64,000 nt of DNA from a virus. Position numbers and translations under genes: made by a program. Below the pieces are notes generated by a model. It was not told the DNA's origin. It did not search any database and saw nothing but the letters and a program-made list of their open reading frames with translations. Positions 3,102-64,000 of this stretch are shown here, one piece after another (the first letter of the stretch is position 1; each line of letters starts with the position of its first letter). Location of the stretch: IMG/VR virus record IMGVR_UViG_3300022822_000017, positions 1-64,000 of that record; one strand, given 5' to 3'.

Positions 3102-3105
3102 AAGT

Positions 3106-3906: not shown

Positions 3907-3926
3907 CAGTATAAAAGAAAACAAGG

Positions 3927-14485: not shown

Positions 14486-14504
14486 GAACAAAAGGACAAC
14501 TTAG

Positions 14505-14537
14505 AGTCAGGGATTGAGTTCCCTGACTTTATTTTAT
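14505..14537 (+). terminator. Terminator after the major capsid gene
   Basis: AGTCAGGGA (14505-14513) pairs perfectly with TCCCTGACT (14520-14528) and is followed by TTTATTTTAT. It lies 19 bases after the MCP stop. It is likely to reduce transcription of the downstream neck genes relative to MCP. Confidence 0.8.
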
Positions 14538-14632
14538 ACCATCAGAGAAGATGATTAAAATCAAATACTAAGTTCATTAACATACAATGAAAAGAACTAT
14601 ATACAAGAATTAATATTTATAAGCAAAACATT

Positions 14633-18251: not shown

Positions 18252-18266
18252 AATAATTATAGAGAT

Positions 18267-19001: not shown

Positions 19002-19022
19002 ACAAGTTAACAATTATAAATT

Positions 19023-41432: not shown

Positions 41433-41434
41433 GC

Positions 41435-43419: not shown

Positions 43420-46400
43420 ATGAATGAAGAAGAGTTTTTATTAAAGTATAACTTGAAGTACAATGAGATTGGTGCACTTACTACATTAAATGATGTCTAT
43501 GTAAGTGAGTTTTCTAATGAAGAGGGTAGTGTTAAAAGTCATGTTTCAAAAGCAGATTTTGACCTTAACAACAAACAACAAGGAGAGGTTATTAAATCAG
43601 GCTATGAGTTTGATGAAACTAGTGACTATGGAGAGTATGACCAAAAGAAACAATCTGTAGCTAAAGCTAAACTAAATACTTATCTTCAAGACCCTAGTTT
43701 TACTACTTTAAGTGAGTTGCCTGAAAATGGTTCTAAAGACCCTAACTATCAAGTAGCTTTTGATGGAATAATGAAAGAGAAGCAGAAAAAGGGAGAGGAC
43801 TATTTTTCTTCTTTTGAAGCTATGGAACAAAACATTAGCAGAACTAGACAACAAGATATAGAAGATAATGTAGTTCTTTCTTCTTTGGAAACAGATGAAG
43901 AAAGAAAAAGTTACATAGCTAACCAAGCAAACCTTAAAAAGTTAGAAAAGGAACATGGTAAAGATGATAAAACTTTAATTAAAGAAGCAGCAGAGATAGA
44001 GGACTTAGCTATAGGACCAAATGGTATTCCTATGATGAGACCAGATGAAGATGCTAACATTATAGAAAAAGGTATGTTTTCTGTGATGAAAGGTTTTTCT
44101 GATGCAAAGTCTTGGGCACTAGCAGGTATGACAAGTGCAGGAGAAGGAATAGAAGATGAGAAAGCAAAAGCAGAATACTTAAGACTAAAAGATGAAGAGC
44201 ATGTTTTAATTGCACCTATTGCAACTAAAAAGAAGATGGAGCTTCAGGCTAAAATGGATCTTTTAGAGAAACAAGCAGAAGATGTAGGCTACTGGTCTAG
44301 GGACTATGCTATGCTTAATAGGCAACACCAACAAATGGGTAAGAAAATAATGGAGTTAGATAACTTTGTTAATAAGGCTCAATTTGATTGGAGTATATTT
44401 TCTTCTAAAACTATTACTGATATAGCATCTTTAGGTTTTACAGATGTACATGAACAACTACTTATTGATTTAGCTATCAGTAAGAAAATGGAAAACAAAG
44501 AAGAATTAAGTGACTTAGAAAAAGGATACTTAGAAACTCAACATACATTAAAAGATATTGATGGTTTACCATTAGAGCAATCTTTTATGCATCAAGTTAC
44601 AGGAGGTACAGTACAATCCTTTTCTTTTCTTTTAGGAGGTATAGGAGGTAGAGCAGCAGGTAAAGTTATCTCAAGAGGTATCACTACTAAACTTGCTAAA
44701 TTGTCTACTCCTTTAGTAAAAACTCTAGCAGTGTCTGCAAATGTGGGAACACAAACTTTGTTACACTCAAACACTTATAATGAATCTCTAAAACAATATG
44801 TAGGAGATGTAGAGATTACAGAAGATGCAGAAGGACAACCTGTATTTTTAGCTAGACATGATTTGTACAATTCTATAAAAGAAGAGAACAGATTAAAACT
44901 TGTAGGACTTGATAGAGCTATTTTCCAAAATGAAGGAAATGCAAAAGTAGTTGCTGAACTAGAGGCATCAAAGAAAAGTTTAACAGCTTATGACAATAGT
45001 GTTAAGATGCCTATGTCAGGTGCAAAGTCTTTATTGTATGGAGGATTTGAAACACTTAAAGAAGTAGGGTCTGAACAATTTGGTGGTGCTATCTTAGGTA
45101 AACTAGGTTCTGGAGCAAAAGGTTCTATTGCTTGGATGGGTAAAAAAGCTAACATTGGTCCTAACAAATTAAGTATAGGATTAGAAAAAGCAAGAAGAAA
45201 ATTCTCTAGCCTTGACAGTAATGCTTTAAATGATTTTAACAGAATGGCAACTGCTGTACCTGGTAAAAAATTAATTGGAGGGCAAGGAGAAGAAATGTTT
45301 GAAGAGGTACTAGTGCAAGTTATACCTACTGTAGGTAGTGATTGGCAAGATTACAAGAATCAATTAAGTGAATTAACTAAAGCTGATTTCTATGTAAAAA
45401 TTGCAGCACAAACTTTTTTGATGAGGTCTGGTATGAAAGGAGTTTCAAGTGCCAAACAAAAGTATGACACTTTTACTAAACTGTCTTCTAAAGACAGAGC
45501 CACAGCTAAGAAAGCACAAGAAGAGATGGAAGTTCTTTTTAAAACAATGGGTAAAAAAGGTGGAACCCAGGCAGATTTTAACAAGGCATTCATGCAAATA
45601 GGAGAAGGTAAATTCTCTATAACTGATTACAACAATGCTATACAAGGCTTACAAGAGTCAGGAAATTTTGAAGAGGTTTCTACTCAAGAAGAAATGAAAA
45701 GAGACTTTGCTCAAAAGCAAATTCAAGCAGTACAAGCACAAGGAAAGTTAAAAGAATTTAAGAAAGCTCTTAACAAAGCTAAGTACAATAAGAATTTAGA
45801 TGCAGGAACTAAAGGTCACATGGCTTTCTTATCACAAGAAATAAATGAAATTGAAGGAGATGATGCTACCTATGTAAACAGTACTCAAGTAATAAACTTA
45901 AAGTCTAAAAAGAAATATACTGATAGAGCACTTGCTAAGTTAGAAACTTCTGCTCTTAATCAAGATATTAATGAAAGTGAAGCTTTAGATGAGATTAATA
46001 AAAAGCTGAACACTAAAGATAAAACTGTTAAAGAAATTTTCAAAGGAGACTTAAAGTTTTCTCTTGGGAACATTGCAGGTATGTCTAATAATGCACAAGA
46101 ATATTTAGCATTAGAGCAACAAAGACACTCTATGACTGAAGCTTCTAATGAGTTACAAAAAGAAATTGAGAGAGTTACTGACTTCAAACATCAAAATGTA
46201 TTGATGAATGAACAAGATTACAGTGCTTACATTGCTAGAGTAAACAAGAAAGTTTTTAAAGGAGAAATCACTGCTGACCAATTTCAAAAGTATATAGCTG
46301 ACCAACCTAGGTCTGACTTTAAAAAGAATTTAACTCCTGAGAGTTTAAGTAAAATTAACAGTGCTATACATGAAGAGTTAGTTAGCAATGAAACTGCTGT

Positions 46401-49400
46401 AAGAAAGTATTCTGCATTCCAAAAGCAAATGGAAGCAAGAGCTAAAGAAAAAGCAGCAGCAGAGAAGGCAGCTGCTTCCTTTAAAAAAGGAGGAGATGAT
46501 GTAACTAAACCTGATGCAGAAACAATCAAAGCACAAGGACAAGAAACTGTTGCAGAAACAGCTACACCTTTGACAGAAGAAGTAGTGGCAAAAAGTGTAG
46601 AAACTCCTAAAGCCAAGACTACTGCTGAACAACAAGAATATCATCAAGTTAATTCTGATAATATCTTTGGTGCATTAAATGCAGTAGCAGAAGCAACATC
46701 TGTTTTACCAGAAACAAATGTAACTTCTGAAACAAGAAAAGATAAACTTGTTCAAAGCAAACAAGGAGCAATAGAACAAGCTAAACTAGAACAAGTTGTT
46801 ACAGACTTAAAAGCAGAAAAAGTTGCTTTAAGAGATAAAGATGGAACAATTTCTGATGAAAACATGAAAAGGTTTAAGTCTATACAAAAACTTATTTCAA
46901 AAGCAACTAAAAAAGCTACTAGGGCAGATACTTCAAATGGTGTATTTCATGCAATTAAAACTAAAAGTCCTGTAGATGGAGATCCAGTTGTTTTAACACA
47001 ATCAGATGCAATAAAAGCAGAACAAGATATACAAGAAATAATAACTAATGGTCTTAAAAATAAAAAAGACAGCAATGATATTTTATCAGAAATAACATCA
47101 AAATATAGTTTTGACATTTCTACTGTAAGTAGTATTCTTAATTATATTGAGGACCAAGATTCAAGTGTACCAGAAGTAGGTAACAACAAACAATCATTTG
47201 CAGCATGGAGAAAAGCTTCTTATGACAATAAGAGAGTAGAGGAAGACACAGATGATACAGAAGACCTTGATGAAGATGGTTACATAGAAATGATGTTACC
47301 AGGAGGTACATACTTAAATGATAAAACTACTGCAACCCTTAAAGCTTATTATGAAGATAAGATTAAATGGGAAGGAGTTTCTCCCACCTTTCAAGACTTT
47401 TGGCTTGAAGCAATTCAAGAAGGTTTTATTGCTAAGAATGATTTAAGCAAAGAACAAATTAAAATGCTTGGTTTAAATTGGCAACAAGCTGGTAATGGTA
47501 AGAGTAATTGGGAATCTATTTGGGACAAGAATTATGTTAAGCCTAATAGTTTTTTATCACAAGTCTTTGAAGAGAATGGTTCTTTAGTTAAAACAGAGGA
47601 AGAGGTTATTGCAGAAATAGAAGAAGCATCTGAAGCTGCTGTAATTAAAGCAGAGCCACAACAAGTAATAAACCCTACAACAGGAGCAGTAGTTCCAGTA
47701 ACTTCTGTAGCAGGTAAAACTTCAGTAGTTACTGCTAAAGCTAATTTTAAAGCAATAGCTTATCAGAATGAAACATCAGATGTACAAACAGTAAATGGTA
47801 AAAAAGTAATACAAGTATCAAAACAAGATACTAATCAAGGTGTACCAATGCTTGCTGAAAGTAAAACTATAAACATTGTGGCTACTTTAAATAGTAACCC
47901 AGGAGATATATGGTCAGTAGCAATGGCAACAGAAGCTGAATGGGATATACCAGTAGAAGTTACAAATACTGCTAATTGGACAACAGAGTTTATGCCTTTT
48001 TCTACATGGGTAAAAAGAAATATCAAAGGAAGAAGCATTGAAGACTTTCAAAATTCTCCAGAGTACATTAACAAAGTGCCTATGTTGTATAGAAACAACA
48101 AACAGCAAGTTGTTGGTGTAGTAGCTGACTCTGATTGGTACAGTCCTTTGACAATAAAAGATTCAAGTAAAAAGAATGGAGAATTTGTAGAGCTTAATAA
48201 CCCTACTGCTGCACATGCTAAGTCTATAAAGGAAGGTAAAGACAACACTATAGCACTTAGACAAAAGATAGCTAGTGGAGAGGTTACAAACATGGAAGTT
48301 GAAACTAGAGATGGAAGTCCTTATGCTAAAGTCCCTAGAAATCTGCCTGCAGTTTCACTAGAGAAAGCTTCTCCTACTTCTGAAATTGTATTCTTTAAGA
48401 CAGGTAATTTCTATGGCTTAAACAATGAAAAAATAAATGAAGACAAGACTAAGGCTATTACTAATCCAGGTCTTATTAAAAAGTTAAATCAACAGAATAA
48501 TTCAGGAAACAATAGTGCTTATTATATGAGTCCTGTTTATATCAAAGATGGTGTACAGTTTTATGAAGTGATAGCTGTTCTTAGAAAAAATGAGAACAAT
48601 GAAAATAGTGCTTTTGATGCAGACATACAAACTTCTAAGTATATCTTAGGTGCACAAAAAGTTTTAAAGTTTCCTGATGCAAACCAACAAGAGTTAGGTA
48701 TTACTAAAACAGAAGCTTTAGCTCTTCAAGCATTAGTGAAAGCTCAAACAGGTTTAGATATTCAAGACTATGGTGTAGCTAAAGAACTAGTTCATGGATT
48801 AATTGCAATACAAGGTTTAAACAGTGATGCTAAAGACAGTAAGTTTACTGTATCTTCTAAGAATGTACCAATAATGTACCAAGATAAAAATGGTAACCTT
48901 GATACAAAAGAAGTAAGTTTTACAGATGCATTGTTCTTAGGACAAAGTACAGTAGTGCAAAACACTTATGTAAACAGTAATAATTCAAAAGGTATTACAA
49001 TCTCTAAAAATTCAGAGGGATCTTTTGATGTAAATGTAGCTGAAACTTATGAAAAGTTTTTAAGGAAGAGATTGTTTACAGATGTTGTGAGTTATGATAT
49101 AGGTACTGAAGGTAATCCAAAATTTACCCATTCAGTTCAGCCTATCATTAAGCTAAAAACTACCACAGCAGTGTCTGTAACTGTTGCACCTCAAGTAAAG
49201 AATGAAGTAAAGCCTACAATAGCTGTAGCAAAAGAGACATTAACTGAAGAGCAAAATGAACAAGTCTTAGCTGCACAAAATGCTTTAAGACTGTTAAATG
49301 CTTTAAATGAAGGCTCTATTTCTGAAGACTACATAGGAGATTTAAAAAACATAAGTAATGTAAAGAAAGCATTAAACTTAGTTTCAACTTTCTTACCTAA

Positions 49401-52400: not shown

Positions 52401-53208
52401 AGATTTACACCCTACTGATAGTATGGTTCTTAATGGTATGGGTCTTAAAATACAACAAGACATACCATTTAAGTCTGCTGTAAAAGGAGATGATAAGGTA
52501 TCTATGGGTACACAAATTTTCAAACTATTATTTGGAGATGGAGTTGCAGATATTAACACAGATGACTTTGATGGTGCTTCATTACAAGAAGAGTTCTTTG
52601 AAGCTTTTTCTGTAATGATAGACATTAGCAAGCAAAACTTGTTAGACAAATTAGGGTTAGATGAAAACTACAAGCCTATTGATAAAGCTGAATCTTTTGA
52701 AAAACTTAGTGAGTTATTAAAAGAATCTGCAGAAGAAAGAGACTTCTCTGATAATGATTTAAAATTATTAGATGTAAATGAATCAACAAAAAGGGATGGC
52801 TCTAAGGTAAATCACTTTACCTTGCCACTATGGTTTTCTGGGAACAGTAACAAGTTTGAATCTATGCTTACTGCTATTGTAAACAATAAGATATTTAAAC
52901 AAAAATTACCAGGAAACTCTTTTGTAGTAGGGTCTGAAGCAGGTCTTACAATAAGAACACAAGAAGATTTGTTCCAAGAAACAGAAGAAGTTGTAGAAGA
53001 AGTAGTAGTGCCACAAAAAGCACAACCTGTTGCAACTGACTTGACTGCTGAACAAAAAGCAGAAGCTAAACCTGAGTTATCAATGTCTTTTGTAAGTAGG
53101 TCTGAACTTACTAACTCTGAAGATATAGATAAAACTCTTGAAGATAACAATAGAATAAAAGATGAGTACACAGAACTTGAAGACTTAATGGGTTGTTTAT
53201 GGCAGTAG
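43420..53208 (+). CDS. Giant virion protein carrying the first half of the virion RNA polymerase
   Basis: A 3262-residue protein. Residues about 1-390 are charged helices, 391-448 hydrophobic (SFSFLLGGIGGRAAGKVI) and 650-1150 mainly coiled coil. The middle is a conserved-looking beta region (about 1430-1760). The C-terminal 700 residues carry blocks I recall from crAss-like virion RNA polymerases: TMAGDPAIYFNSKG (about 2720), IKSSSFPLIPDLI, YQSANKVGAMA (about 2962), GTQIFKLLFGDG (about 3030) and KQKLPGNSFVVGSEAG (about 3160-3175). These correspond to the beta-like half. No DxDxD loop is found here; it lies in the protein starting at 59121. Confidence 0.75.
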   Translation: MNEEEFLLKYNLKYNEIGALTTLNDVYVSEFSNEEGSVKSHVSKADFDLNNKQQGEVIKSGYEFDETSDYGEYDQKKQSVAKAKLNTYLQDPSFTTLSELPENGSKDPNYQVAFDGIMKEKQKKGEDYFSSFEAMEQNISRTRQQDIEDNVVLSSLETDEERKSYIANQANLKKLEKEHGKDDKTLIKEAAEIEDLAIGPNGIPMMRPDEDANIIEKGMFSVMKGFSDAKSWALAGMTSAGEGIEDEKAKAEYLRLKDEEHVLIAPIATKKKMELQAKMDLLEKQAEDVGYWSRDYAMLNRQHQQMGKKIMELDNFVNKAQFDWSIFSSKTITDIASLGFTDVHEQLLIDLAISKKMENKEELSDLEKGYLETQHTLKDIDGLPLEQSFMHQVTGGTVQSFSFLLGGIGGRAAGKVISRGITTKLAKLSTPLVKTLAVSANVGTQTLLHSNTYNESLKQYVGDVEITEDAEGQPVFLARHDLYNSIKEENRLKLVGLDRAIFQNEGNAKVVAELEASKKSLTAYDNSVKMPMSGAKSLLYGGFETLKEVGSEQFGGAILGKLGSGAKGSIAWMGKKANIGPNKLSIGLEKARRKFSSLDSNALNDFNRMATAVPGKKLIGGQGEEMFEEVLVQVIPTVGSDWQDYKNQLSELTKADFYVKIAAQTFLMRSGMKGVSSAKQKYDTFTKLSSKDRATAKKAQEEMEVLFKTMGKKGGTQADFNKAFMQIGEGKFSITDYNNAIQGLQESGNFEEVSTQEEMKRDFAQKQIQAVQAQGKLKEFKKALNKAKYNKNLDAGTKGHMAFLSQEINEIEGDDATYVNSTQVINLKSKKKYTDRALAKLETSALNQDINESEALDEINKKLNTKDKTVKEIFKGDLKFSLGNIAGMSNNAQEYLALEQQRHSMTEASNELQKEIERVTDFKHQNVLMNEQDYSAYIARVNKKVFKGEITADQFQKYIADQPRSDFKKNLTPESLSKINSAIHEELVSNETAVRKYSAFQKQMEARAKEKAAAEKAAASFKKGGDDVTKPDAETIKAQGQETVAETATPLTEEVVAKSVETPKAKTTAEQQEYHQVNSDNIFGALNAVAEATSVLPETNVTSETRKDKLVQSKQGAIEQAKLEQVVTDLKAEKVALRDKDGTISDENMKRFKSIQKLISKATKKATRADTSNGVFHAIKTKSPVDGDPVVLTQSDAIKAEQDIQEIITNGLKNKKDSNDILSEITSKYSFDISTVSSILNYIEDQDSSVPEVGNNKQSFAAWRKASYDNKRVEEDTDDTEDLDEDGYIEMMLPGGTYLNDKTTATLKAYYEDKIKWEGVSPTFQDFWLEAIQEGFIAKNDLSKEQIKMLGLNWQQAGNGKSNWESIWDKNYVKPNSFLSQVFEENGSLVKTEEEVIAEIEEASEAAVIKAEPQQVINPTTGAVVPVTSVAGKTSVVTAKANFKAIAYQNETSDVQTVNGKKVIQVSKQDTNQGVPMLAESKTINIVATLNSNPGDIWSVAMATEAEWDIPVEVTNTANWTTEFMPFSTWVKRNIKGRSIEDFQNSPEYINKVPMLYRNNKQQVVGVVADSDWYSPLTIKDSSKKNGEFVELNNPTAAHAKSIKEGKDNTIALRQKIASGEVTNMEVETRDGSPYAKVPRNLPAVSLEKASPTSEIVFFKTGNFYGLNNEKINEDKTKAITNPGLIKKLNQQNNSGNNSAYYMSPVYIKDGVQFYEVIAVLRKNENNENSAFDADIQTSKYILGAQKVLKFPDANQQELGITKTEALALQALVKAQTGLDIQDYGVAKELVHGLIAIQGLNSDAKDSKFTVSSKNVPIMYQDKNGNLDTKEVSFTDALFLGQSTVVQNTYVNSNNSKGITISKNSEGSFDVNVAETYEKFLRKRLFTDVVSYDIGTEGNPKFTHSVQPIIKLKTTTAVSVTVAPQVKNEVKPTIAVAKETLTEEQNEQVLAAQNALRLLNALNEGSISEDYIGDLKNISNVKKALNLVSTFLPKQQRELGGYMFSLIANNSTEANNLNNTEFKQLIERLYKDNFRAKKAEITAQYNIIKSIADSGNSSEAIQELLKNLVATVDNLDMVINNFDQIYLKKIREAGKKKFIDTNVKSAKDLEKELDKEASQAEQGYVKDYNQSSNEVVHKDKISKKLKKIFSEVSTGETGFMGIDLYQNYDKVYNKIASFMSNPLPLSPNFDTMIAKLETIPEFASIVASLKESDVDVQNGFVSNMYKYAANAKFIAFTTNGQTGLEGEVWFSNRNNLKQKIRETWDNNFKRSDVVTQDSLNQEKLQKLADQYDSWKGEGFNQDPEVLKEWLRSFGLDISEGTWDELVEGNLMINRTGLSNEKLSFEDLFYDEGKRRDRLFSSLANYAKTYAKTSSAIDFTKNDKLVPFEDMNNIMKGLIEIESHHNASLANITRRDGGKTVSEIVFPSHFLDTFNALSNSAGTDKAGIKALQETAYAENSYWLDLLMNEPAMADVFSYGETGLMSMRNMDKPMNDYSKIENLSSLDYMYHQRAMFQFMRTEPFPRYKGFKMRVATMSIPTSSDKGRMMLLKVPVFDLLAMENTLTANDNGTVNFSQDLNDLLFEQLVKPELNRIVEHKLLETEPDIKNYNKGAVRFNAMAGLNTLKNSEGVSAVKFLEQGGSIKDFTSQYKDAAVAHIKELMENDVVQNLSVIGDTNQNSDNFNKKEYISRNTATTNQKKKLAEFDYVINSYFNNTNIMQTMAGDPAIYFNSKGSDSTIDDKALQAQYSKELGVNMGKRLALMIAPGIVTANSDTQKHIQLFLKDQSEVASMAENIVEFHYGKDALKEEFMGKTYDQHIKDLRDKKSTDVVKEQLNLKFAKVAKFFDIESTDAQEYTTLREHLRLLVGEGKITQDKADEIHDHVFVKKLPLDRNDKDVQLVLQPMKPVYTGSVIKDGINRIMYIKSSSFPLIPDLITGTGLEPLMNKMNEIQELSGGKTVRASYQSANKVGAMATEIDPFSQNDLDGLTTNWNSTDLHPTDSMVLNGMGLKIQQDIPFKSAVKGDDKVSMGTQIFKLLFGDGVADINTDDFDGASLQEEFFEAFSVMIDISKQNLLDKLGLDENYKPIDKAESFEKLSELLKESAEERDFSDNDLKLLDVNESTKRDGSKVNHFTLPLWFSGNSNKFESMLTAIVNNKIFKQKLPGNSFVVGSEAGLTIRTQEDLFQETEEVVEEVVVPQKAQPVATDLTAEQKAEAKPELSMSFVSRSELTNSEDIDKTLEDNNRIKDEYTELEDLMGCLWQ

Positions 53209-53573
53209 ATAAAAAGAACAAAGATTTTATAGAAGAATTTGCAATAAGTGAGAAGAGACACAGGGAACTTATTCTCACTATCAAAGGCATAGTTAATGAA
53301 ATGCCTAAGACTGAAATAGACCTTTCTTCTTTAGAGACAGTAAAGGATTCTATTAACAAACTCATTAGTACTCAAAAGTTTGCAAACACTACTCCTGACA
53401 ATAAAGTAGAACTATTGGACAGTATTAAGAATTTAAGTGCTAACTTTGTAGAAAGCATGGTTGAGTTAAGAGCTGCAGTTGAGCTATCTAACAGACCCAA
53501 AGAGTATGTTTTTCATGTTGAAAGAGACAATGAAGATAATAAGATTACTAAAGTAATAGCTAAAACTAAATAA
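53199..53573 (+). CDS. Hypothetical helical protein, 124 aa
   Basis: The ATG at 53199 overlaps the 3' end of the giant gene by 10 bases. The earlier TTG at 53193 is less likely. The protein is helical (VDKKNKDFIEEFAISEKRHR) with a Val/Ile-rich end that suggests strands. The next start overlaps its stop (TAATG). It is the first gene of the cassette that interrupts the polymerase. No family is recognised. Confidence 0.6.
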   Translation: MAVDKKNKDFIEEFAISEKRHRELILTIKGIVNEMPKTEIDLSSLETVKDSINKLISTQKFANTTPDNKVELLDSIKNLSANFVESMVELRAAVELSNRPKEYVFHVERDNEDNKITKVIAKTK

Positions 53574-53740
53574 TGAAAGCATTTGCAATTGTACAAGATA
53601 CACAGAACACTGGAGACCAGGACTTATCTGCATATCAAACAATTGAAAATGCAGATTATAAACTATCACTAAAATCAGATACAGACCATGAACATGAAAT
53701 AGGTAACATGAAATTGTTATTTGAAAACTCTTTATTATAA
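53573..53740 (+). CDS. Small protein, 55 aa
   Basis: A 55-codon frame beginning MKAFAIVQDTQNTGDQDLSA, whose ATG overlaps the upstream stop by one base. The coupling and the lack of any other frame support it. It is soluble and acidic, with no known family. It falls below the usual gene-length limit. Confidence 0.5.
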   Translation: MKAFAIVQDTQNTGDQDLSAYQTIENADYKLSLKSDTDHEHEIGNMKLLFENSLL

Positions 53741-53783
53741 ACACAATTACTATTAATATATACAACCATTAACAACAAACACA

Positions 53784-54431
53784 ATGAGCTTAATCCAAAG
53801 AATTTCAGACTTAACCATCAGGGTTGGTACTGAATTTAAAACAGTAAAAACGTTAATAGCAGGAACTGCATCTGGTAGTTTAACAGCATTAACAACAACA
53901 GTAAAGACAAGTATTCTTGCAGCAATCAACTCACTTAAAACTGAAGTAGATGGCAAGCAAGCAAATTTAGGTTACACACCTGAAGATGAAAACAACAAAG
54001 GTCAAGCAAATGGATATGCTCCATTAGATGCTAATGCCAAAGTACCTGCTGCACATTTACCTGCTTATGTAGATGATGTATTAGAATCAGCTGATTTTGC
54101 TAGTTTACCAGCTTCTGGTGAAACAAGTATTATCTATGTAACATTAGATGATAACATCACTTACAGATGGACAGGTTCAGGGTATGTAGAGATTTCTAAA
54201 TCTTTAGCTTTAGGAGAAACTTCTTCTTCTGCATATAGAGGAGATAGAGGTAAGATTGCTTATGACCATTCACAGATTACAGATGCTAACCCACACCAAA
54301 CTACATTTGAGCAATTATTAGCAAAACCTACAACAATTGCTGGGTTTGGAATTACAGATGCATTTACTAAAGATGAAATTGGAGATGTAACCACAAACTA
54401 TGTGTCTGCATTTGAATCAGCTTTGCTATAA
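53784..54431 (+). CDS. Tail fibre protein with common YRGDRG module
   Basis: A 215-residue fibre protein. The start MSLIQRISDLTIRVGTEFK is a helical anchor shared with the next gene. LGYTPEDENNKGQANGYAPL and a KVPAAHLPAYVDD segment are frequent fibre modules. AYRGDRGKIAYDHSQITDAN ends in the NPH motif seen in many fibres, followed by GITDAFTKDE. It probably binds the particle through the N-terminal anchor. It heads the fibre run of the cassette. Confidence 0.75.
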   Translation: MSLIQRISDLTIRVGTEFKTVKTLIAGTASGSLTALTTTVKTSILAAINSLKTEVDGKQANLGYTPEDENNKGQANGYAPLDANAKVPAAHLPAYVDDVLESADFASLPASGETSIIYVTLDDNITYRWTGSGYVEISKSLALGETSSSAYRGDRGKIAYDHSQITDANPHQTTFEQLLAKPTTIAGFGITDAFTKDEIGDVTTNYVSAFESALL

Positions 54432-54434
54432 TAC

Positions 54435-54710
54435 ATGAGTCTAGTATCTAAAATATATGACTTAGCTGCAAGAATTGCACTAGAAATTAAATCACTTAGG
54501 GAGTCAAGGTTGAAAAATACCTCTGACACCCTAGATGGTGATTTAGATATTACAGGTTATGTTAAAGCAAATGGAACTGTTGAGGGATCTAATTTATCAG
54601 GTAACAACACAGGAGACCAAGACACTATATACCCAATGGTACATAGTGCAAATATGATGATGAAGCAACAAACTGAATTTATTAAATCTATAAACAACAA
54701 TTGGATATGA
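54435..54710 (+). CDS. Short fibre protein with shared anchor, 91 aa
   Basis: It starts MSLVSKIYDLAARIALEIKS, closely similar to the N-terminus of the 53784-54431 protein. LDGDLDITGYVKANGTVEGS and NLSGNNTGDQD follow, standard fibre elements. It lacks a tip and may be a short accessory fibre. Its TGA overlaps the next ATG (ATGA). Confidence 0.65.
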   Translation: MSLVSKIYDLAARIALEIKSLRESRLKNTSDTLDGDLDITGYVKANGTVEGSNLSGNNTGDQDTIYPMVHSANMMMKQQTEFIKSINNNWI

Positions 54711-54913
54711 CATCAGAAGAAATAGCTATTATGGCTTTGCAACAAACTAATTCTGAATTAGTAGCTGCTGTTAATACAACCAAAGCAAATATAGAATCAT
54801 CAATAAATGATGCAGTTGTCTTAGCTGGAGATACAGTAGTAGCAGGGTTAATATCAGTTACTAGTAATTCCATAGCTTCTAAGACTATGTTTCTTAGATA
54901 CTTAAATAAATAA
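54707..54913 (+). CDS. Small Ala/Thr-rich protein, 68 aa
   Basis: The ATG at 54707 overlaps the upstream stop in an ATGA. An in-frame TTG at 54701 is less likely. The protein is largely helical (SELVAAVNTTKANIESSIND) and resembles a short coiled-coil stem of a fibre. Function is unknown, but position suggests a fibre accessory. Confidence 0.5.
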   Translation: MTSEEIAIMALQQTNSELVAAVNTTKANIESSINDAVVLAGDTVVAGLISVTSNSIASKTMFLRYLNK

Positions 54914-54916
54914 ATT

Positions 54917-55528
54917 ATGCCAACAAATCAAGACATAGTAGACAACATAGTTGTTTTAGATGACTCAGTTCAAGAACTATTAATAGAAGCAGGAGTGACT
55001 AAAGATGCTGCTGATGCTTTAATAGCTGCTTTTCAAGCAACAAAAGACAGAGTAGATAATGAACTAAGTGAAGTAGATAATACTACAGATGCTAATAAGC
55101 CTTTGAGTTTGTCTATCATAGAAGCACTACTACTTAAAGTAAATATAAATACTGTAAGTACTGTAAATGGGGTTTCCTTATTAACAGGTGTACCTTTAGT
55201 TATAGAAAGGGGTGCAGTATCAAGAAGAACATTATCTTATGAATTAAGAGGGACATTAAGAAGTCCTGCAGCACCATTACCAGTTGCTGATGATTCAGTA
55301 GTAATAGAATCTATAGGAGAATTTATCTATGTAGAAAGCACAGGAGAACCTGATGAAGATGAAACATGTTTTACATCAGTACACCCAGATACAGGAGTAG
55401 CTATAGGACAATGGTTATTAGAAATACCACATCCAGACTACTTAAATGCAGCAGACTTATTTAAAGATGCTATCTTAGATGAATGGATGGAAGATGAAGA
55501 AATTAGAATAGCAGGTTACAACAACTAA
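54917..55528 (+). CDS. Fibre-associated protein, 203 aa
   Basis: The protein has an N-terminal helical part (NQDIVDNIVVLDDSVQELLI), then NTVSTVNGVSLLTGVPLVIE, a strand-turn motif seen in phage fibres, and an acidic beta-rich end with SVHPDTGVAIGQWLLEIPHP. It ends a short run of fibre genes ahead of the paralogous pair. Likely part of the tail surface. Confidence 0.6.
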   Translation: MPTNQDIVDNIVVLDDSVQELLIEAGVTKDAADALIAAFQATKDRVDNELSEVDNTTDANKPLSLSIIEALLLKVNINTVSTVNGVSLLTGVPLVIERGAVSRRTLSYELRGTLRSPAAPLPVADDSVVIESIGEFIYVESTGEPDEDETCFTSVHPDTGVAIGQWLLEIPHPDYLNAADLFKDAILDEWMEDEEIRIAGYNN

Positions 55529-55540
55529 AAAACAATTCAA

Positions 55541-56965
55541 ATGATAACATTAAAAGCACGTAGAACTCTGAATGCTATTGAGACAGGGACTTTAGATAGT
55601 TCAGGTTTAGAAGCTAGATTAGCAGACCCTGGACATTTAGCAGAATTTTACAGTCTGTTAGCAACTAAAAGCCAAACTAGAAGAATGGCTTCAAGTGAAT
55701 TAACAATGGAAGCAATTGCTTTTAGTGAAAAAGCTCACAAAGCTATTTTTCAATCTTCTACAAATTACAATACAACAGCTGCTCAAGCAGTTGCAGATAG
55801 TCCTGTAGCTATGGCTAAAATGGCTGTGTCATTAGATGCTTTAACAGTAGCTATTGAGAACCCAGTATCATGGGCATTATTTACAAACAGTCCTTACTAT
55901 GAAGTAAACATTAAAACTATTGTAGCATTATTTGCTGGATTAGATGCAAGTCTGTATGAGTCTATTCAAGAAATGATAGAAGACCCTGCAGCAACTTATG
56001 AAATTGCAGCAAATGATAATGCAATGACTGCACTTGTAAATAGTACAATAGCTATGACTAAGGCAGTAGACACAATTACAGCAATGGATGACATTGTAGC
56101 TGATACCTCAGCATTTACAATTTTAGCTAATCATGGTCCTAGTTTAAACTTAGTTGCACAAAGTGCAATAGCTATGTCTGCAACTACTGATGAAGCTAGA
56201 GCAATTGTAGTAGGTATTCCTTCTGGACTTAGAATCTTTGCTTCTTACCCAGTTCTTTGGAAATCTCTAATGGAGACTTCAGAAACTTTAGCCACTAATA
56301 TGTATAGTTTAATTATTGTACTTACAGAAATAGACCCTACTGTCTTTACAACAGTAGAACAAATATTTGGTAATGAAATATCAATGGACAAAGTTGCAAG
56401 TAACAGTCCTACTATGGTAGCAATAATGCATGAAGAAGGTACATTAAATGCAATGATTGCTAGTGCTCAATTAGATGTTGTATTAGCTAATCCTGTGTCA
56501 ATGGGATTATTTGCAGCAGACACAACAATTATGAGTGACCTTATTGGGTCATCAGCATTCACTGCTTTACTAGGAAGTCCTTTAGCTAAAGAAGCAATTT
56601 TTGCTTCTCCTTCTTTGATAACAACAATGACAGAAGCAGGTTCAGATTCTCTTGCAACACTAGAAGGGTTGTCTGTTAACTTAACAGGACCCACACCAGA
56701 CACTAAGATTGGACAATTTCAAAGCTTAGGTCTTACAGGTAACATTATTTTGTTAACTGCTAGGATAGGTTCTATTACTGCTGCTAAAGTTGACAACTAC
56801 TTTAAAGGAGATGGTCAATCAACTGCAACATTTGCTTGTCCAGGTACTCATGCAGCAAGTGAGTATCCAATAATCAATTTACCATTTACTAATATCCAAT
56901 GGGATATTAACTCTATTGCAGCAACTGCAGCTGCTAAGATTACAGTAACTTATGTTTCATTTTAA
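55541..56965 (+). CDS. Tail fibre protein of S-x-x-A-M repeats, paralogue 1
   Basis: A 474-residue protein. After a conserved opening (GHLAEFYSLLATKSQTRRMA) it consists of loosely repeated helical units such as SPVAMAKMAVSLDAL and STIAMTKAVDTITAM, a pattern common in long phage fibres. The C-terminus from about residue 385 is a beta-rich tip. It is paralogous to the next gene over its whole length. CGT arginine codons are used in the first codons, rare here. Confidence 0.7.
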   Translation: MITLKARRTLNAIETGTLDSSGLEARLADPGHLAEFYSLLATKSQTRRMASSELTMEAIAFSEKAHKAIFQSSTNYNTTAAQAVADSPVAMAKMAVSLDALTVAIENPVSWALFTNSPYYEVNIKTIVALFAGLDASLYESIQEMIEDPAATYEIAANDNAMTALVNSTIAMTKAVDTITAMDDIVADTSAFTILANHGPSLNLVAQSAIAMSATTDEARAIVVGIPSGLRIFASYPVLWKSLMETSETLATNMYSLIIVLTEIDPTVFTTVEQIFGNEISMDKVASNSPTMVAIMHEEGTLNAMIASAQLDVVLANPVSMGLFAADTTIMSDLIGSSAFTALLGSPLAKEAIFASPSLITTMTEAGSDSLATLEGLSVNLTGPTPDTKIGQFQSLGLTGNIILLTARIGSITAAKVDNYFKGDGQSTATFACPGTHAASEYPIINLPFTNIQWDINSIAATAAAKITVTYVSF

Positions 56966-56984
56966 CAACTAATAAGATAACATT

Positions 56985-58427
56985 ATGCCAACACTAAGAG
57001 CACTAAAAACATTAAATGAAGTAGAGTCAGGAGCATTGGATGGTGCAGGTCTTGAACTAAGACTAGTAAATCCAGGGCACTTGGCTGAGTTTTATAGTTT
57101 GTTATCTACTAGAAGTCAAACAAGAAGAGTAGCATCTAACACATTAACTATGACAGCAATGTCAGTAAGTGAGTTAGCACACAGAGCTATTTTAGCATCT
57201 GCAAGACATGATAATACTTCTGCTGCAACTGCAGTATCAGGTAGTTTAGTAGCTATGAATAAAATATCTATATCATTAGATGCTTTAAACATAGCTATTG
57301 AAAACAGAGTTTCATGGGGGTTATTTATAACTAGTGCACATTATGAAAACAACATTAAGAGTATTGTATGTTTGTTTGCAGGATTAGATCCTGATGACTA
57401 TTTTAGTTTAACAGACATGATTGAAGACCCATCTGCAACATATCAAATAGCTTTAAGTGACAAAGCAATGGAAGCTTTAGTAAACAGTACAACAGCAATG
57501 GCTATAGTTGTAGAAACAGAGACAGCTATGCAAGACATAGTTGCCAAAGAATCTGCATTTACTATTCTTGCAAATAATGTTCATAGTGTTAATGAACTAG
57601 CAGGAAGTACAATAGGTATAACTGCTGTTACAGATGCAGCAAGAGCAATAATTGTTAGCATACCAGCAGCATTAAAAGACTTTGCATCACATAATTCTGT
57701 ATGGGAAGATTGGATGTCAACATCAGAAACTTTGTCTGATACTATCTATGATATTCTACTTATTTTAACAGAAGTGGATGGAGCTGAATTTGAAACTACA
57801 GAGCAAATATTTGCTAATCCTGTTCCAATGAATAAAATTGCAAGTAGTACTTCTGCTATGATAGCAATATTAAATGAAGCAACTACTTTAGGTATTTTTA
57901 TTAATAGTCCTGAAATAAGTATTGCACTTACTAACCCAATATCAATGGGATTACTTGCAGGAGATACTTCAGTAATGGTTGGACTTGTTGAGAATGAAGC
58001 AACATTTCCTATCTTATTAAACAGTACTTTATCTAAGTCAGTTATGTTTGAGTCTAATGATATAGTAAATGCAATAGCAGGTAATGCCTTTGCAATAGCT
58101 ACTTTAGAAGCTATAGCAGTGGAAGTATTAGCTCCTACTTTACCAGATGGAGTAGTTGGAACTTATCAATCATTTGGATTCCCTGGTAAGATGCTTATGT
58201 TAGCAGCAAGAATGAACTCTATTGTAGCAACTACAACAGATGTTGCATTTAGAGGAGACCCAATGTTTGGCTCTGAAGCTGGAACAACTAATGCTTATGC
58301 AGGTAAGTCAGCATCTACTGATTATAGAAACCACATTGCAGCTTATACTGACATGGAATGGGACCCTAAAGTAATCACAGCTACTGCAGCAGCACAAGTA
58401 TATGTAAGATATGTAGATTTTAACTAA
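56985..58427 (+). CDS. Tail fibre protein of S-x-x-A-M repeats, paralogue 2
   Basis: A 480-residue paralogue of the preceding gene, with the opening GHLAEFYSLLSTRSQTRRVA and the same unit order. The N-terminal 200 residues are clearly more alike than the C-terminal tips, where the sequence past about residue 390 differs. That is what is expected if the tips bind different targets. Together the pair gives the phage two fibre types, or two parts of one. Confidence 0.7.
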   Translation: MPTLRALKTLNEVESGALDGAGLELRLVNPGHLAEFYSLLSTRSQTRRVASNTLTMTAMSVSELAHRAILASARHDNTSAATAVSGSLVAMNKISISLDALNIAIENRVSWGLFITSAHYENNIKSIVCLFAGLDPDDYFSLTDMIEDPSATYQIALSDKAMEALVNSTTAMAIVVETETAMQDIVAKESAFTILANNVHSVNELAGSTIGITAVTDAARAIIVSIPAALKDFASHNSVWEDWMSTSETLSDTIYDILLILTEVDGAEFETTEQIFANPVPMNKIASSTSAMIAILNEATTLGIFINSPEISIALTNPISMGLLAGDTSVMVGLVENEATFPILLNSTLSKSVMFESNDIVNAIAGNAFAIATLEAIAVEVLAPTLPDGVVGTYQSFGFPGKMLMLAARMNSIVATTTDVAFRGDPMFGSEAGTTNAYAGKSASTDYRNHIAAYTDMEWDPKVITATAAAQVYVRYVDFN

Positions 58428-58435
58428 AACATCCT

Positions 58436-58840
58436 ATGGCACAAGAGCTAAATTATTATGGAAAGATAGCAGAGACAGGTTTAACTGTCATTGCTAAAAT
58501 ATATAACAGTCAAGGAGTGCAAGTGGGTGGAGACATTCCTTGCACTGAAGCTGGTACTCTTTCTATTTATATTGGAAGTATGCCTACTGCTCCTATTGGA
58601 GAATATGGTGTCAGGTTTTTCAATGGCTTAATTCTTTTAGGTCAGGGTCCAATCTATTGGAGTGGTACTGCTGAACTTAACTTTGATGCTTACAATAAAG
58701 TATCTGACACACATAAAATACAAGGATTAGACAGAGACCATCCACTAACTGCTACAAGAGATTCTATGAAAGCTGGAGATGTTGACATTGACATAGCAGG
58801 AAATGGAGAAACCTTATCAATATTTACTAGAAAAGAATGA
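58436..58840 (+). CDS. Minor tail protein, 134 aa
   Basis: A beta-rich protein with an opening typical of small tail accessory proteins (two Ig-like strands, then APIGEYGVRFFNG). The segment THKIQGLDRDHPLTATRD and the late GDVDIDIAGNGETLSI are close to a pattern in many phage tail proteins, where a GLDxxxP motif precedes a short beta tail. It may cap or connect the fibres. The next ATG overlaps its stop. Confidence 0.6.
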   Translation: MAQELNYYGKIAETGLTVIAKIYNSQGVQVGGDIPCTEAGTLSIYIGSMPTAPIGEYGVRFFNGLILLGQGPIYWSGTAELNFDAYNKVSDTHKIQGLDRDHPLTATRDSMKAGDVDIDIAGNGETLSIFTRKE

Positions 58841-59130
58841 GAAGTTCCTTAACTTTGGGCACTAGAGGTAAGTTGTCTAGTAGAGTAAAAAGAACCCTAG
58901 TAATAGCTTCTTTTGGTTTTATACAAGTTATAAATACTGCAGCAGTAGCAGAGAATGCACAAAGAGCACAGATAAATGATGCTAATTTTGTACATTACAC
59001 TGTTGAAGCACCTGAAGTAAGAGACACTAAACAAGTCAGTGATTACAATGCAGAGGTAGATAAAAAGAATATCATTGATGATGATAAAGAAGTCCTTTTA
59101 ATAATTAAAATGTTTACACAATGGCTATAA
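58837..59130 (+). CDS. Hypothetical protein, 97 aa
   Basis: A basic N-terminus (MRSSLTLGTRGKLSSRVKRT) is followed by a moderately hydrophobic stretch (LVIASFGFIQVINTAAV), then a helical charged part. It could have one membrane segment. It starts with an ATGA overlap on the upstream stop and ends 10 bases inside the polymerase gene. No family is recognised. Confidence 0.55.
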   Translation: MRSSLTLGTRGKLSSRVKRTLVIASFGFIQVINTAAVAENAQRAQINDANFVHYTVEAPEVRDTKQVSDYNAEVDKKNIIDDDKEVLLIIKMFTQWL

Positions 59131-62100
59131 AATGTCTTAAAACCACTAAGATTATTCCTTTAAAAGAAGCTTACCTTAAAGCTGTCAAAGATGACATGTC
59201 TGATAAAGAAGTAAGAGATTTAAGTACTAAACTTGTAGTAGATTATTTTAATACTCTTGACAAAGAAATGTCAGAGTTAAAGAAAGGACTAGGAAACACA
59301 AAAATACAACCTAAATCTGTTACTTATGAAGCAAAATCTTTAGAGGAACTTAATCCTTTAGTTGCTCAAGAAGTGGTTACAGAGAAAAGAACTGTAACAA
59401 GAAATAAAAAGAAACCAAGAATAAGTGCCATAGTTCCTGGTAATCAAGTAGTGTATTTAGGAGATTATTCAGGTGCAGAATTAAAAGGAAATGAAGTATT
59501 AGCTCCTTCTAAGGTTAAGTTGAATGGTACTTTAATTGATTTGTTTGAATCAGATAAGTCTGGGTACAAATACATTATTGAAAATGCAGATGGTAGTTTT
59601 CAAATCAATGAAGATAAGATAGACCCAACACTTTTTGAAAACTTTGGTTTCAGAACTCCAACCTCTTCTCATGGTTCAGGTTCTTTTATCAAAATAGTAG
59701 GATTTATTCCTGCAATAATGGGTGACTTAATGATTACCCCTAAGAATTTTGTTACCCAAATGGGACAAGATTTTGATATTGATAAACTTACTGCTTATCA
59801 ATACCACCATGCACTAAATAGTGAAGGTAAGATTGTAAAGTTAAATGAAAGTTTTAAAGAAAACTCTCTTGAAAGCTTAAAGAAAGATTTAGTAGAGCTA
59901 AGTAAACAAGGTTCAATAGCAGGTAACACTGGTATTGCAGTTGCCTTTTTAGACAAAGCAATTACAGAAGCTAAATATGGTCTTACTGAACAAGAATTAA
60001 CTGACATTATACTTTCAGAAGATGCTGAGGTTGAAGCTAAAATCAAAAAAGCAAGTAATGCTTTTGATATGAAGATGGCTCAAAACAAGTTTATTGAAAT
60101 ACACAATATTGTTTACAATAATCAAAGTCCTGAAATCCAAAGAAGAATAAATAAAGTTCTTTCTATGGATGTGGCAACAAGTCAAGCTGAAGGAATTGAA
60201 GCAGCTACTACCTCTGGTAATTCAGCTATAAACATTCTTTCTCCTAACTACCAGATGAACAAGTTAATATCTGGTTCAACAGGTTCTACTGCTATTGGAA
60301 TTTATGCCAAAGGAGTAACATTTAACTCTTTAGTACAACAATCTAAAACCTCTTTAGGTCTTATAGCACTTAATGATAAAGGAGAAGATATAGCTAAAGA
60401 AATTAGAATAGGTAACATAACCTCTGATGGTACATTTGGTAGAAGTAAAACTATAAGTAGAAAAAATGCTAGTGAAGTAGAGTTGTTTTTAGCTAGGACT
60501 ACTACTGAAGTAATGGATGAAAAAGTAAACACTGCAACAGATAATGAGAAAGCACAAATTCTAGGTAGAGTTGGTATTACTCATATTGACTCTGTGGCAG
60601 TAGATAACCTTTTATCTTTACTAGGAGTGGATTTAGAAATAAAAACTATATTAGAATCTGAATACAATGTGGAAAATAAGTTTCACAAAAAAGCAATTGT
60701 AGATGGTAAACCTGTGTTTTATGAGCAGTACTCAATACCATATTTACTACATTCTCAGCCTATAATACAAGAGTATTTTGATAGATTAAAAAATGCAAAA
60801 TCTATTGTAGGAGATTCTCAACCTAACATTGAAGATGTAATCTTTGAAGAATTAACTAGAGGACACAAGTTTACTGCAAAAAGTGCAGAAACTGCTCAAT
60901 CAGATATGACAGGTAAAGCCTTAGTTGCTAACTTAGGTGCATCTGCAAACACTACTAGTCAAAAAGAAATACTTAATATTTACAGAAATTTAATAGCTGA
61001 TGCTAAACAAGTAAAAGAGCTAAACCAGGTAGTTGATTTATCAAATGTTGGTAAATCTATGTGGGAATTGAAAGATAAGATTGAAACTTTTGAAGAGTTA
61101 AAAAATCCTGATGGCAAGTTTAATAAACTCTTTGACAACCCTTTGTCTCTTATGGGAGAGATACAAGATGGAGAGTTTGTAGCTACAACTAATCAAGGTA
61201 AAATGGTTAGTACTGCTTTAGAGATGGGTAGAAAATTATTCTATGACTTGTACCCTTATTATGACTCTTATATTGAAGAGAAAATACATAACATTGAAAC
61301 AAGTGCTAATTACACAGGTTCTAAAACTGCACTACAAGAAGTAATTTTTCAAGAGATTAAAAAATATGTAACTTCTGACCCTAAAAATGGTGTGTTTACT
61401 GCATCTCCTACACTATCAAGAGAGAAAATCTTCTTTAATAAAGATGGTAATCAATCTCTTAGTAGATACATGGGAGACCTTAGAAGTAAAAACTCTATCA
61501 TTAAAGACAATGTATTATTAAATGCATTATCTCACACTGTAGGTATAAATGGTAAACCAGATATCATCAAATTTGATAACACTGAAGGAGCCAACATAAC
61601 AGAAGAAGATTTCCATATAGCATTCAAAGAATTATTAGTTAGTGATGTAGCTCTTCCAGATAGAAATGGTCAACCATATTCTACTAGAAAAATGGCACAA
61701 GAATTAGTAGCTTATTCACACTTATCAGGTGGAATTATAAGTGAAGTTATTGAATTTCACAAGTACATACCTCTTGAGTACTATGAAGACTTAGTTGCTA
61801 TAAACACTACAAGTACAGGTAAAAAGCAAAAGACCAAGAGTATCAGAATGATGCAAAGGTATGACACTAAGATAAACAAATGGGGAGACTCAGATTTGTT
61901 AAGAAATTTTGAGACACAGTTCTTTCAAAACAATCCTAATTATGCACCTATACTAACTAAAAAACAAAAGGAACAAAATGCTACTATTGATGGAGATAGA
62001 ATGCATCTTACTATAGAAGAAGGAGCAACTCACAAAAAGTTTGTTGCATTTAAAAATCCTAGTGAAAACCTTAAAACTGAAAAGTGGACCCTTTACAGGT

Positions 62101-64000
62101 TAATGGACAACTCAGGGCACTATCAAAAGATAGAAGTTGTGGGTGACTTTGGTTTATCAGAGTATGATACTACTAAATCTGTTGCTTCCACAAATGTTGT
62201 AAAAGAATTAAGTCCTGCTCAGAAAGCTAAAAATAATGCATTTGTCCCTGCACCTGCTAAGACTAACTTGTCTGCTGTAAAAAGACAGCCACAAGAATTT
62301 ACTATAGAACCAACTGACAATGTTTTGGATGTTCTTAAAAAGATTAGTTTAGACAATACTTTTGAAAACCCAGGACTTTCTAGTGTTGCTAAAACAATGG
62401 TAGATTTATTTCAAGATAAAGTACTTACAACTAAGATCCAAATTATCAATGATGCTAATGCACCTATTGGAGGGTCATACACTAAAGATACTCTTACAAT
62501 TAACCTAGCAGTGCCTAATGTAGCTGAAGTATTTGTACATGAATTTGTACACTCTGTTACTGCTGACTATATTAATGTACATTTAAACAAAGATGGTAGT
62601 TTAAAAGAAGGTGCTCCAACTGATGTAAAAGAGCTCAATGAAGTATTTAAAGAATACTCCAGAGAACTACTTAAAAAACATCCTAAAGAAAGTGCAATAT
62701 TTGCTGAGAAATGGGCAACTTATAAAGCTAACAAAACTTTATTACCAGAACAAAGAACATCAGTAGAGTTTACAGACAGAGAAAAGTCTGTATTCTATGC
62801 AGCATTAAACTTGAAAGAATTTTTAGCTATTCCTTTATCTAATAACAAAGAGTTTTTAGAGGAAACAGGTAAAATGAAATACAAGTCTTCTGCTACACTT
62901 AGTATAGGACAAAAGTTTGCAAAAGTATTCCAAAGATTATTGAACACTATTGCAAGTAAAGATAATACTGTAGGAAAAGATTTAATTGAATCTACTTTAA
63001 GTTTTGTAGCACAAAGAGCAAGTAAAACAAAAGCTATTCAACAAAGTATTTCTAATTCAGAGTTACAAAGACTTAAAGCATTATATGGAGATGAGTTTGA
63101 AACTGACCATTTACCAAATAATCCTCAAGAAAAGGTAGGAGATGTCATAAATAGGAGTATTGTAGAGGTAGAAAATATTTTTGAGGCAGAGGGAGGCACT
63201 TTAGAAGGAGGTATAGTAACTTTTGATAAAGGTAGTTACAAAAGTAATTATGATGCAATGATAGGCTCTGTACAAGGTCTAAAAAATTATAATAGAGCTA
63301 ATTTTAATGTTAGCTATACAAATGATTGGTATGAGACAAGAAGAGTTGGAGATAAGATACAAATTAGATTAAGTTTCCCAACTAACCTACAAAATGATTT
63401 AATTAAAAATAATGGTGTACTTAAAAAAGCAGATGTTGAACAAGAATACAGAGACATAGAATACTCTTTAACTTCAGAGACAAATGAACAAAGTTCACAA
63501 AATGCTGAACACTATTTAGAAGATAAAAAAGAGTTTTTAAAACAAATCTATAGAAGGATTAATGTCTTGAAGCAAACTTATGAAAAAGATGCTTCACAGT
63601 TAAACCAACTAAAGAAATTACAGTTAATAAGAACTCAACTTCACAGAGACATTGAATTTTTATCTACTGAAGATGCAACAAATGAAATAATACCTATTTT
63701 CAATAGGACTTTCATTACTCTTAAAAGAGATTTAGATATTATAAAAAATGACTTCTTAAAAGGAGAACCTATTTTAGAAAACCTTTTATTAGGTAGAAAG
63801 TATTTAGATGATTTAAGTAAGATATATAGTTCTACAGGAGAAAAGAGATTTTCTAAAGAATACTTTGGTAACATGGAAGAGGGTCCAATGAAAAAGAAGT
63901 TTGAAGACTTCCAATCAGAGTACTCTAATGTTAGTGAACTATTAAGTCTTGCAGAAGATACTTATGTTACAGAAAATATAACTAAAGAAGATGCAACAGT
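59121..64000 (+). CDS. Virion RNA polymerase, second half with DFDID loop and zincin domain (partial)
   Basis: At least 1626 codons without a stop from ATG 59121 to the edge. IVGFIPAIMGDLMITPKNFV leads to MGQDFDIDKL. D217, D219 and D221 form the metal-binding DxDxD loop of the beta'-like half in crAss-like virion RNA polymerases, related to YonO and cellular two-barrel polymerases. At residue 1140 HEFVH is a zincin HExxH site, with a likely third ligand in LNLKEFLA about 95 residues on. The first 100 residues look like a linker. The beta-like half is at 43420-53208. The gene runs off the window. Confidence 0.8.
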   Translation, partial: MAIKCLKTTKIIPLKEAYLKAVKDDMSDKEVRDLSTKLVVDYFNTLDKEMSELKKGLGNTKIQPKSVTYEAKSLEELNPLVAQEVVTEKRTVTRNKKKPRISAIVPGNQVVYLGDYSGAELKGNEVLAPSKVKLNGTLIDLFESDKSGYKYIIENADGSFQINEDKIDPTLFENFGFRTPTSSHGSGSFIKIVGFIPAIMGDLMITPKNFVTQMGQDFDIDKLTAYQYHHALNSEGKIVKLNESFKENSLESLKKDLVELSKQGSIAGNTGIAVAFLDKAITEAKYGLTEQELTDIILSEDAEVEAKIKKASNAFDMKMAQNKFIEIHNIVYNNQSPEIQRRINKVLSMDVATSQAEGIEAATTSGNSAINILSPNYQMNKLISGSTGSTAIGIYAKGVTFNSLVQQSKTSLGLIALNDKGEDIAKEIRIGNITSDGTFGRSKTISRKNASEVELFLARTTTEVMDEKVNTATDNEKAQILGRVGITHIDSVAVDNLLSLLGVDLEIKTILESEYNVENKFHKKAIVDGKPVFYEQYSIPYLLHSQPIIQEYFDRLKNAKSIVGDSQPNIEDVIFEELTRGHKFTAKSAETAQSDMTGKALVANLGASANTTSQKEILNIYRNLIADAKQVKELNQVVDLSNVGKSMWELKDKIETFEELKNPDGKFNKLFDNPLSLMGEIQDGEFVATTNQGKMVSTALEMGRKLFYDLYPYYDSYIEEKIHNIETSANYTGSKTALQEVIFQEIKKYVTSDPKNGVFTASPTLSREKIFFNKDGNQSLSRYMGDLRSKNSIIKDNVLLNALSHTVGINGKPDIIKFDNTEGANITEEDFHIAFKELLVSDVALPDRNGQPYSTRKMAQELVAYSHLSGGIISEVIEFHKYIPLEYYEDLVAINTTSTGKKQKTKSIRMMQRYDTKINKWGDSDLLRNFETQFFQNNPNYAPILTKKQKEQNATIDGDRMHLTIEEGATHKKFVAFKNPSENLKTEKWTLYRLMDNSGHYQKIEVVGDFGLSEYDTTKSVASTNVVKELSPAQKAKNNAFVPAPAKTNLSAVKRQPQEFTIEPTDNVLDVLKKISLDNTFENPGLSSVAKTMVDLFQDKVLTTKIQIINDANAPIGGSYTKDTLTINLAVPNVAEVFVHEFVHSVTADYINVHLNKDGSLKEGAPTDVKELNEVFKEYSRELLKKHPKESAIFAEKWATYKANKTLLPEQRTSVEFTDREKSVFYAALNLKEFLAIPLSNNKEFLEETGKMKYKSSATLSIGQKFAKVFQRLLNTIASKDNTVGKDLIESTLSFVAQRASKTKAIQQSISNSELQRLKALYGDEFETDHLPNNPQEKVGDVINRSIVEVENIFEAEGGTLEGGIVTFDKGSYKSNYDAMIGSVQGLKNYNRANFNVSYTNDWYETRRVGDKIQIRLSFPTNLQNDLIKNNGVLKKADVEQEYRDIEYSLTSETNEQSSQNAEHYLEDKKEFLKQIYRRINVLKQTYEKDASQLNQLKKLQLIRTQLHRDIEFLSTEDATNEIIPIFNRTFITLKRDLDIIKNDFLKGEPILENLLLGRKYLDDLSKIYSSTGEKRFSKEYFGNMEEGPMKKKFEDFQSEYSNVSELLSLAEDTYVTENITKEDAT

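Follow-up and report, generated by a model that had tools for sequence, protein, structure and literature searches.

Two large open reading frames (ORFs) on one strand of a viral genome, separated by ten further genes, each resemble a different part of the same virion RNA polymerase (RNAP). This raises the question of whether the enzyme is genuinely divided between two chains and, if so, how the division came about. The stretch of DNA analysed here (the window) comprises the first 64,000 bases of the 67,838-bp IMG/VR virus record IMGVR_UViG_3300022822_000017, a metagenomic contig. The phage it comes from (the window phage) is crAss-like and related to Fipvunavirus, and its virion RNA polymerase has two barrels and belongs to the family represented by gp66 of Cellulophaga phage phi14:2. 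PHROG matches and the annotation of the Fipvunavirus member Flavobacterium phage FpV4 reveal a Fipvunavirus-like gene order in which terminase, portal and head protein are followed by tail and cargo genes ahead of the RNAP block; no near DNA relative was found among named phages. The original prediction, made from the DNA letters, held that a fibre cassette had been inserted into the polymerase gene.

A polymerase encoded by two open reading frames

The N-terminal part of the polymerase is contained in protein A (43420..53208, + strand, 3262 aa), and the C-terminal part in protein B (59121..64000, + strand, continuing to 67826 in the record, 2901 aa), which in addition carries a gp33/gp65-like virion protein. 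Both match the 4401-position profile phrog_16227, A at positions 1287-3088 (E 4e-189) and B at positions 3404-4332 (E 1e-117). FpV4 gp32 is one ORF of 4287 aa, with which A is collinear to residue 2985 (A 1433-3184 aligned to gp32 1243-2985) and B from residue 2988 onwards (B 105-1296 aligned to gp32 2988-4217), leaving only two gp32 residues unmatched between them. Alignment to phi14:2 gp66 places A and then B in the same order as against gp32, and the two halves thus correspond to one chain in phi14:2, as had been predicted, and in FpV4 as well. A profile spanning the break and including both window halves matched the gp66 structure (PDB 6VR4) at E 2e-55; 6VR4 was reached by profile only, as single-sequence PDB homology searches with each half alone gave no match. 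The halves retain 69 of 78 and 43 of 48 near-invariant polymerase positions, together 112 of 126. The DxDxD catalytic loop with its flanking conserved blocks, a trait of the crAss-like virion RNA polymerase family, is present in the window phage: A has the blocks GDPAIY, GTQIFK and KQKLPG close to its C-terminal end, and the metal-binding loop DFDID (59769..59783, + strand), with its aspartates at positions invariant in family alignments, occupies residues 217-221 of B. These locations, and that of the ten same-strand genes between the halves, agree with the original prediction. The split of the polymerase across two ORFs is therefore confirmed as real and goes beyond chance.

The family trait of both barrels on a single polypeptide is absent from the window. 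A holds the beta-type region together with strand one of the beta'-type barrel, and the remainder is on B, which rules out an arrangement with both barrels in the 59121 protein and is the reason why the enzyme is filed as a variant of the phi14:2 gp66 family. According to predicted structures and family alignments the break cuts into the beta'-type catalytic barrel downstream of the first strand. The last conserved block of A, KQKLPGNSFVVGSEAG (52897..52959, + strand), is aligned across the family with this first strand, which corresponds to strand 525-535 in a model of the core of the closest relative, contig L007 (pLDDT 81, pTM 0.78), and to strand 24-31 in a model of the L007 barrel alone (pLDDT 81). 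In these models the break is a low-confidence loop that follows the strand KLPGNGFVVGSE and precedes the strands leading to RTPTSSH...DFDID. The L007 model matches 6VR4 at a Foldseek E of 1.5e-26, and the part of the barrel that contains the break has 6VR4 as its first match, along almost the whole segment, followed by the largest (beta'-type) subunits of cellular RNAPs. The break is thus not simply one between two domains, since the beta'-type barrel itself is cut. On the far side of the break, A continues into a 78-aa C-terminal extension (52972..53205, + strand) with no FpV4 counterpart, and B starts with an N-terminal extension of 104 aa (59121..59432, + strand) ahead of the point where the FpV4 alignment resumes. 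The break loop measures 8 to 27 residues in most relatives, with far longer in-frame inserts in contigs L039 and L045. In L045 (IMGVR_UViG_3300000983_000001) the insert is several hundred residues long (RNAP ~2750-3330) and is located exactly at the window's break loop; one stretch of it, ASTIFELxP...IY..Y, is similar to how the gp33-like protein of contig L078 begins.

Relatives were collected in three IMG/VR scans (~47 and 46 contigs in overlapping sets, plus L153-L158). Wherever both halves could be located in a relative (about 50 contigs), the two sides of the break share one ORF, and this holds for the closest kin too, which are 44-56% identical. In a tree of the catalytic part the window is grouped with L007 and L158 with a support of 100/100, and both of these are unsplit. 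Since the unsplit relatives include the closest kin, the split is a derived state in the window lineage. The relatives have neither the break nor the gene cluster between the halves, and the intervening genes are not common to all of them, which upholds the view that the order in the window is not ancestral.

The window polymerase is a new variant within a known polymerase family, a natural split enzyme broken inside its catalytic barrel in a phage whose checked relatives all have it as one chain. Like phi14:2, with gp66, gp67 and gp65, the window phage has the two-barrel polymerase, the gene order and the terminal cysteine pairs described below; in phi14:2, however, the polymerase is one chain, whereas in the window it is cut and its C-terminal part is fused to a gp65-like protein. 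Cellular two-subunit RNAPs also build a two-barrel active site from two chains (beta and beta'), as is proposed for the window, but there the cut lies between the barrels while here it lies inside the second one, and a break of the beta/beta' type was not encountered. Zeta-group crAss-like phages have RNAP ORFs that are disrupted by stops or frameshifts, even in DxDxD, with boundaries that vary among relatives (PMC7886860). Their polymerase ORFs are broken as in the window, which differs from them in its two clean ORFs, the signature at the new chain ends and the gene cluster between the halves.

Terminal cysteines at chain boundaries

The comparison of chain ends uncovered a cysteine rule that is a more general result than the split polymerase. 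The giant proteins of the polymerase block are nearly free of cysteine, with 64 non-terminal residues in 294,326 (0.022%, from 54 non-redundant boundaries and leaving out the terminal cysteines) versus 1.15% in neighbouring ORFs. At the boundary between the RNAP and the downstream chain (57 non-redundant cases) the polymerase has a cysteine among its final 10 residues in 56 and the downstream chain has one among its first 10 in 54, to which contig L064 is added as a 55th if a TTG start is used. The upstream chain usually has its cysteine no more than 7 residues from the C-terminus, and the downstream chain has it at residue 3-6. The outer ends behave differently from these paired ends: the C-end of the last chain carries a cysteine in 1 of 54 and the N-ends of first chains have no terminal cysteine.

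The number of cysteine pairs follows the number of chains. Six contigs in which the polymerase and the gp65-like protein form a fused single chain have no cysteine at all. FpV4, which shares the terminase-to-RNAP order and ~30% identity with the window, makes two chains (gp32 and gp33) and has one pair; its boundary follows the polymerase with no genes between the chains, whereas in the window the boundary lies inside the polymerase with ten genes between. Intestiviridae (Rudgehvirus jaberico, cr271_1, cr8_1, ctbg_1) have gp66 and gp65 fused, a polymerase-gp65-like fusion as in the window, and carry the pair only at gp67/gp66, their one remaining boundary; this boundary precedes the polymerase and the chains contain more internal cysteines, while the boundary of the window lies within the polymerase. 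Phages with three chains, phi14:2 and crAss001 among them, carry a pair at each of the two boundaries. In crAss001 the partner genes gp47 and gp50 are located on opposite strands and yet retain both the C-terminal and the N-terminal cysteine, which implies that the signal acts at the protein level. Across the sequences compared, the terminal cysteines are shown to track chain breaks and not fold positions, and the rule holds at nearly every genuine boundary. A DNA-level origin of the cysteine codons was considered and rejected, given that TGT and TGC are both used, that positions vary and that the crAss001 genes have opposite orientations.

The window obeys the rule at its new ends. The only cysteine of A is Cys3259, the fourth residue from the end of 3262 (TGT, 53194..53196, + strand), and B has Cys5 in its N-terminal sequence MAIKC (TGT, 59133..59135, + strand), the only other cysteine of B being residue 2315. 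The old boundary now sealed within B has none, and neither have the two cargo-like proteins of 481 and 655 aa encoded upstream (39987..43402, + strand); the outer end before A is likewise without cysteine. The terminal cysteines might alternatively be individual packaging or assembly tags, involved in portal, scaffold or metal binding, instead of a pair that joins chains. Each of them does sit at a flexible end; such tags are nevertheless unlikely, as last-chain C-ends and first-chain N-ends lack the cysteine, fused chains have none, and there are as many C-end/N-end pairs as breaks, also in the case of partner genes on opposite strands.

A few contigs depart from the pattern. In L066 (IMGVR_UViG_3300001450_000135), a real or apparent exception, the polymerase and the gp65-like protein are two ORFs without cysteine; it may be a frameshifted fused chain like that of L053, while L043 seems to be related to L049 and frameshifted. 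The cysteine pair offers annotators a marker that helps to tell real chain ends from frameshifts. Some gut phages have additional internal cysteines in these chains. In L007 the ORF breaks at 5141-5153 and 14498-15047 have no terminal cysteine, ~75 residues are missing at the first, and the breaks are probably assembly defects. L142 and L147 (cr109_1 and cr113_1) have structural and RNAP genes with tens of in-frame standard stops and retain the terminal cysteines; the stops fit reassignment of a stop codon. Unlike the cargo, which is free of cysteine, three adjacent proteins at 17310-19931 of the window are rich in it (14, 6 and 11 residues), and two of them start similarly (LTTAGI). Terminal cysteines in crAss-like polymerases were not found described in a literature search that covered the subscription literature in part.

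The ten-gene cluster and the relocated boundary

The cluster between A and B (53199..59130, + strand) consists of ORFs starting at 53199, 53573, 53784, 54435, 54701, 54917, 55541, 56985, 58436 and 58837. Four of them (53784, 54917, 55541 and 56985) match PHROGs of tail or virion-appendage proteins (E 4e-24 to 1e-6) and the remaining six have no family match in the PHROG search; the claim of clear tail fibre genes is thus fair for four of the ten and does not extend to the others. ORFs 55541 and 56985 are tandem paralogues with 50% identity. Neither Pfam nor Rfam searches of the cassette gave a match, and homologues of the fibre-like protein 55541 were absent from the named-phage collection and found among the relatives only in the near-identical contig L005. 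One cassette gene partially matches FpV4 gp20, which is encoded in the upstream structural region of FpV4, and the window phage has a further fibre-like gene near 21.6 kb. The exchange of fibres within the polymerase locus that the original prediction envisaged is hypothetical.

The sequence of B shows that more than the arrival of this cluster is involved. Beyond the polymerase, B continues into the gp33/gp65-like protein (gp33/gp65 HMM, E 2e-86), which matches FpV4 gp33 and its homologues in L094, L091 and L100. This protein is the product of a separate gene in FpV4 and in the closest relatives, while in the window the ancestral boundary between RNAP and gp33-like protein is sealed in frame (63009..63515, + strand, B residues ~1297-1465). 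As a result of the fusion the phage still makes two chains, with a boundary that once followed the polymerase and now lies within it, a shift of about 1,300 codons in the upstream direction. According to the insertion account, a fibre cassette cut a single-chain polymerase gene, the halves pair non-covalently and the terminal cysteines are incidental. This would agree with the two unmatched FpV4 residues between A and B, with the in-frame inserts that the break loop accepts in L045 and L039 and with the similar ATGGC overlaps found at both cassette ends. It does not explain the fusion of B, the extensions of both halves or the lone cysteine at each new end, and the chance of finding a cysteine within the terminal 10 residues of both proteins, of which A has one and B has two, is ~2e-5. 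Insertion is therefore inadequate as a full account and, taken by itself, improbable; the unexplained extensions and fusion identify the window as a case of a relocated chain boundary and not of simple insertion. The new tail of A and head of B have no detectable homology to native tails and heads by shuffled alignment scores, and the native ends of distant relatives are also unalignable. The idea that native tails and heads had been transferred directly to the new ends found no support in these scores and was rejected.

An assembly chimera or a decayed polymerase is very unlikely. The junction of A with the cassette is identical in the IMG/VR contigs L005 and L006, three assemblies in all; the identity of both contigs with the window covers the end of A and extends into the cassette, which speaks against an accident of assembly on the 5' side. 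Both contigs end inside the cassette, and the junction with B, found in no other contig, rests on the window's own record, which is what a chimera has in its favour. Against this, B picks up the alignment almost exactly where A leaves it, near-invariant positions are preserved, and B has its N-terminal cysteine and a start that overlaps the preceding gene by 10 nt, like other genes here. An interrupted gene whose parts are joined by a (trans-)intron or a split intein can be dismissed as barely conceivable and was rejected, for although self-splicing elements are abundant in crAss-like phages (PMC7886860), the cassette has no Rfam match and no intron or intein family among its ORFs, and A has its own stop, B its own start and both a terminal extension. 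The relocated boundary thus remains the preferred reading, and the original interpretation is upheld in part. By eye, a deletion between the ATGGC copies would leave A ending in GCLWL-stop and overlapping the ATG of B, like native boundaries; this empty site is merely suggestive because ATGGC is a common gene start.

A possible disulfide-linked string

It is proposed that the ancestor made two chains from the block, one with gp67 and gp66 fused and the other a gp33/gp65-like protein. In the window lineage an in-frame fusion would have closed the old boundary, and a new one would have opened in the variable loop that follows strand one of the beta'-type barrel. The fibre-like cluster, which occupies the new boundary, may have arrived with it or later, and each new end has a flexible extension with a single cysteine. 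In the virion, the C-terminal cysteine of one chain may form a head-to-tail disulfide with the N-terminal cysteine of the next, replacing the peptide bond of the fused versions, so that the giant chains would form one string that is packed, stoichiometric and threaded through the tail. The reducing cytoplasm of the host would release the chains, and the split barrel would complete itself from A and B. In the window the joint would hold both parts of the catalytic barrel together through ~180 flexible residues instead of a short loop. We consider this sequence of a moved boundary, a disulfide string for ejection and reassembly into an active barrel to be probable as a whole; the comparisons above establish collinearity, the break point, the derived state, the fusion of B and the cysteine rule, and the disulfide, the string, reassembly and activity are inferred. 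The earlier suggestion that the halves could still assemble appears to gain indirect support from the terminal-cysteine signature that both new ends bear.

In the crAss001 virion, disulfides link subunits in the portal vertex and in the tail, and the cargo cannot get through the tail without partial unfolding (PMC10172136). Published crassvirus disulfides are those of tail and portal-vertex proteins, with none documented between polymerase-block chains, and the cargo is unresolved in virion structures. A broader reading, which we put forward tentatively and with somewhat more doubt than confidence, is that crAss-like phages in general join their polymerase chains into a covalent string through lone cysteines, and that this joint is portable and was in the window moved into the catalytic barrel, giving an enzyme that would be active only once two chains complete the barrel. 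In either form, the cysteine rule offers a testable idea of how several hundred kilodaltons of crAss-like polymerase may be held together through packaging and ejection.

Genes of another kind are also found at a chain boundary. In contigs L067, L068, L075, L077 and L084 a gene of 157-160 aa, ferritin-like by eye, lies in the ~500 bp between the gp67-like and gp66-like genes, a precedent suggesting that additional genes may be tolerated where two chains meet.
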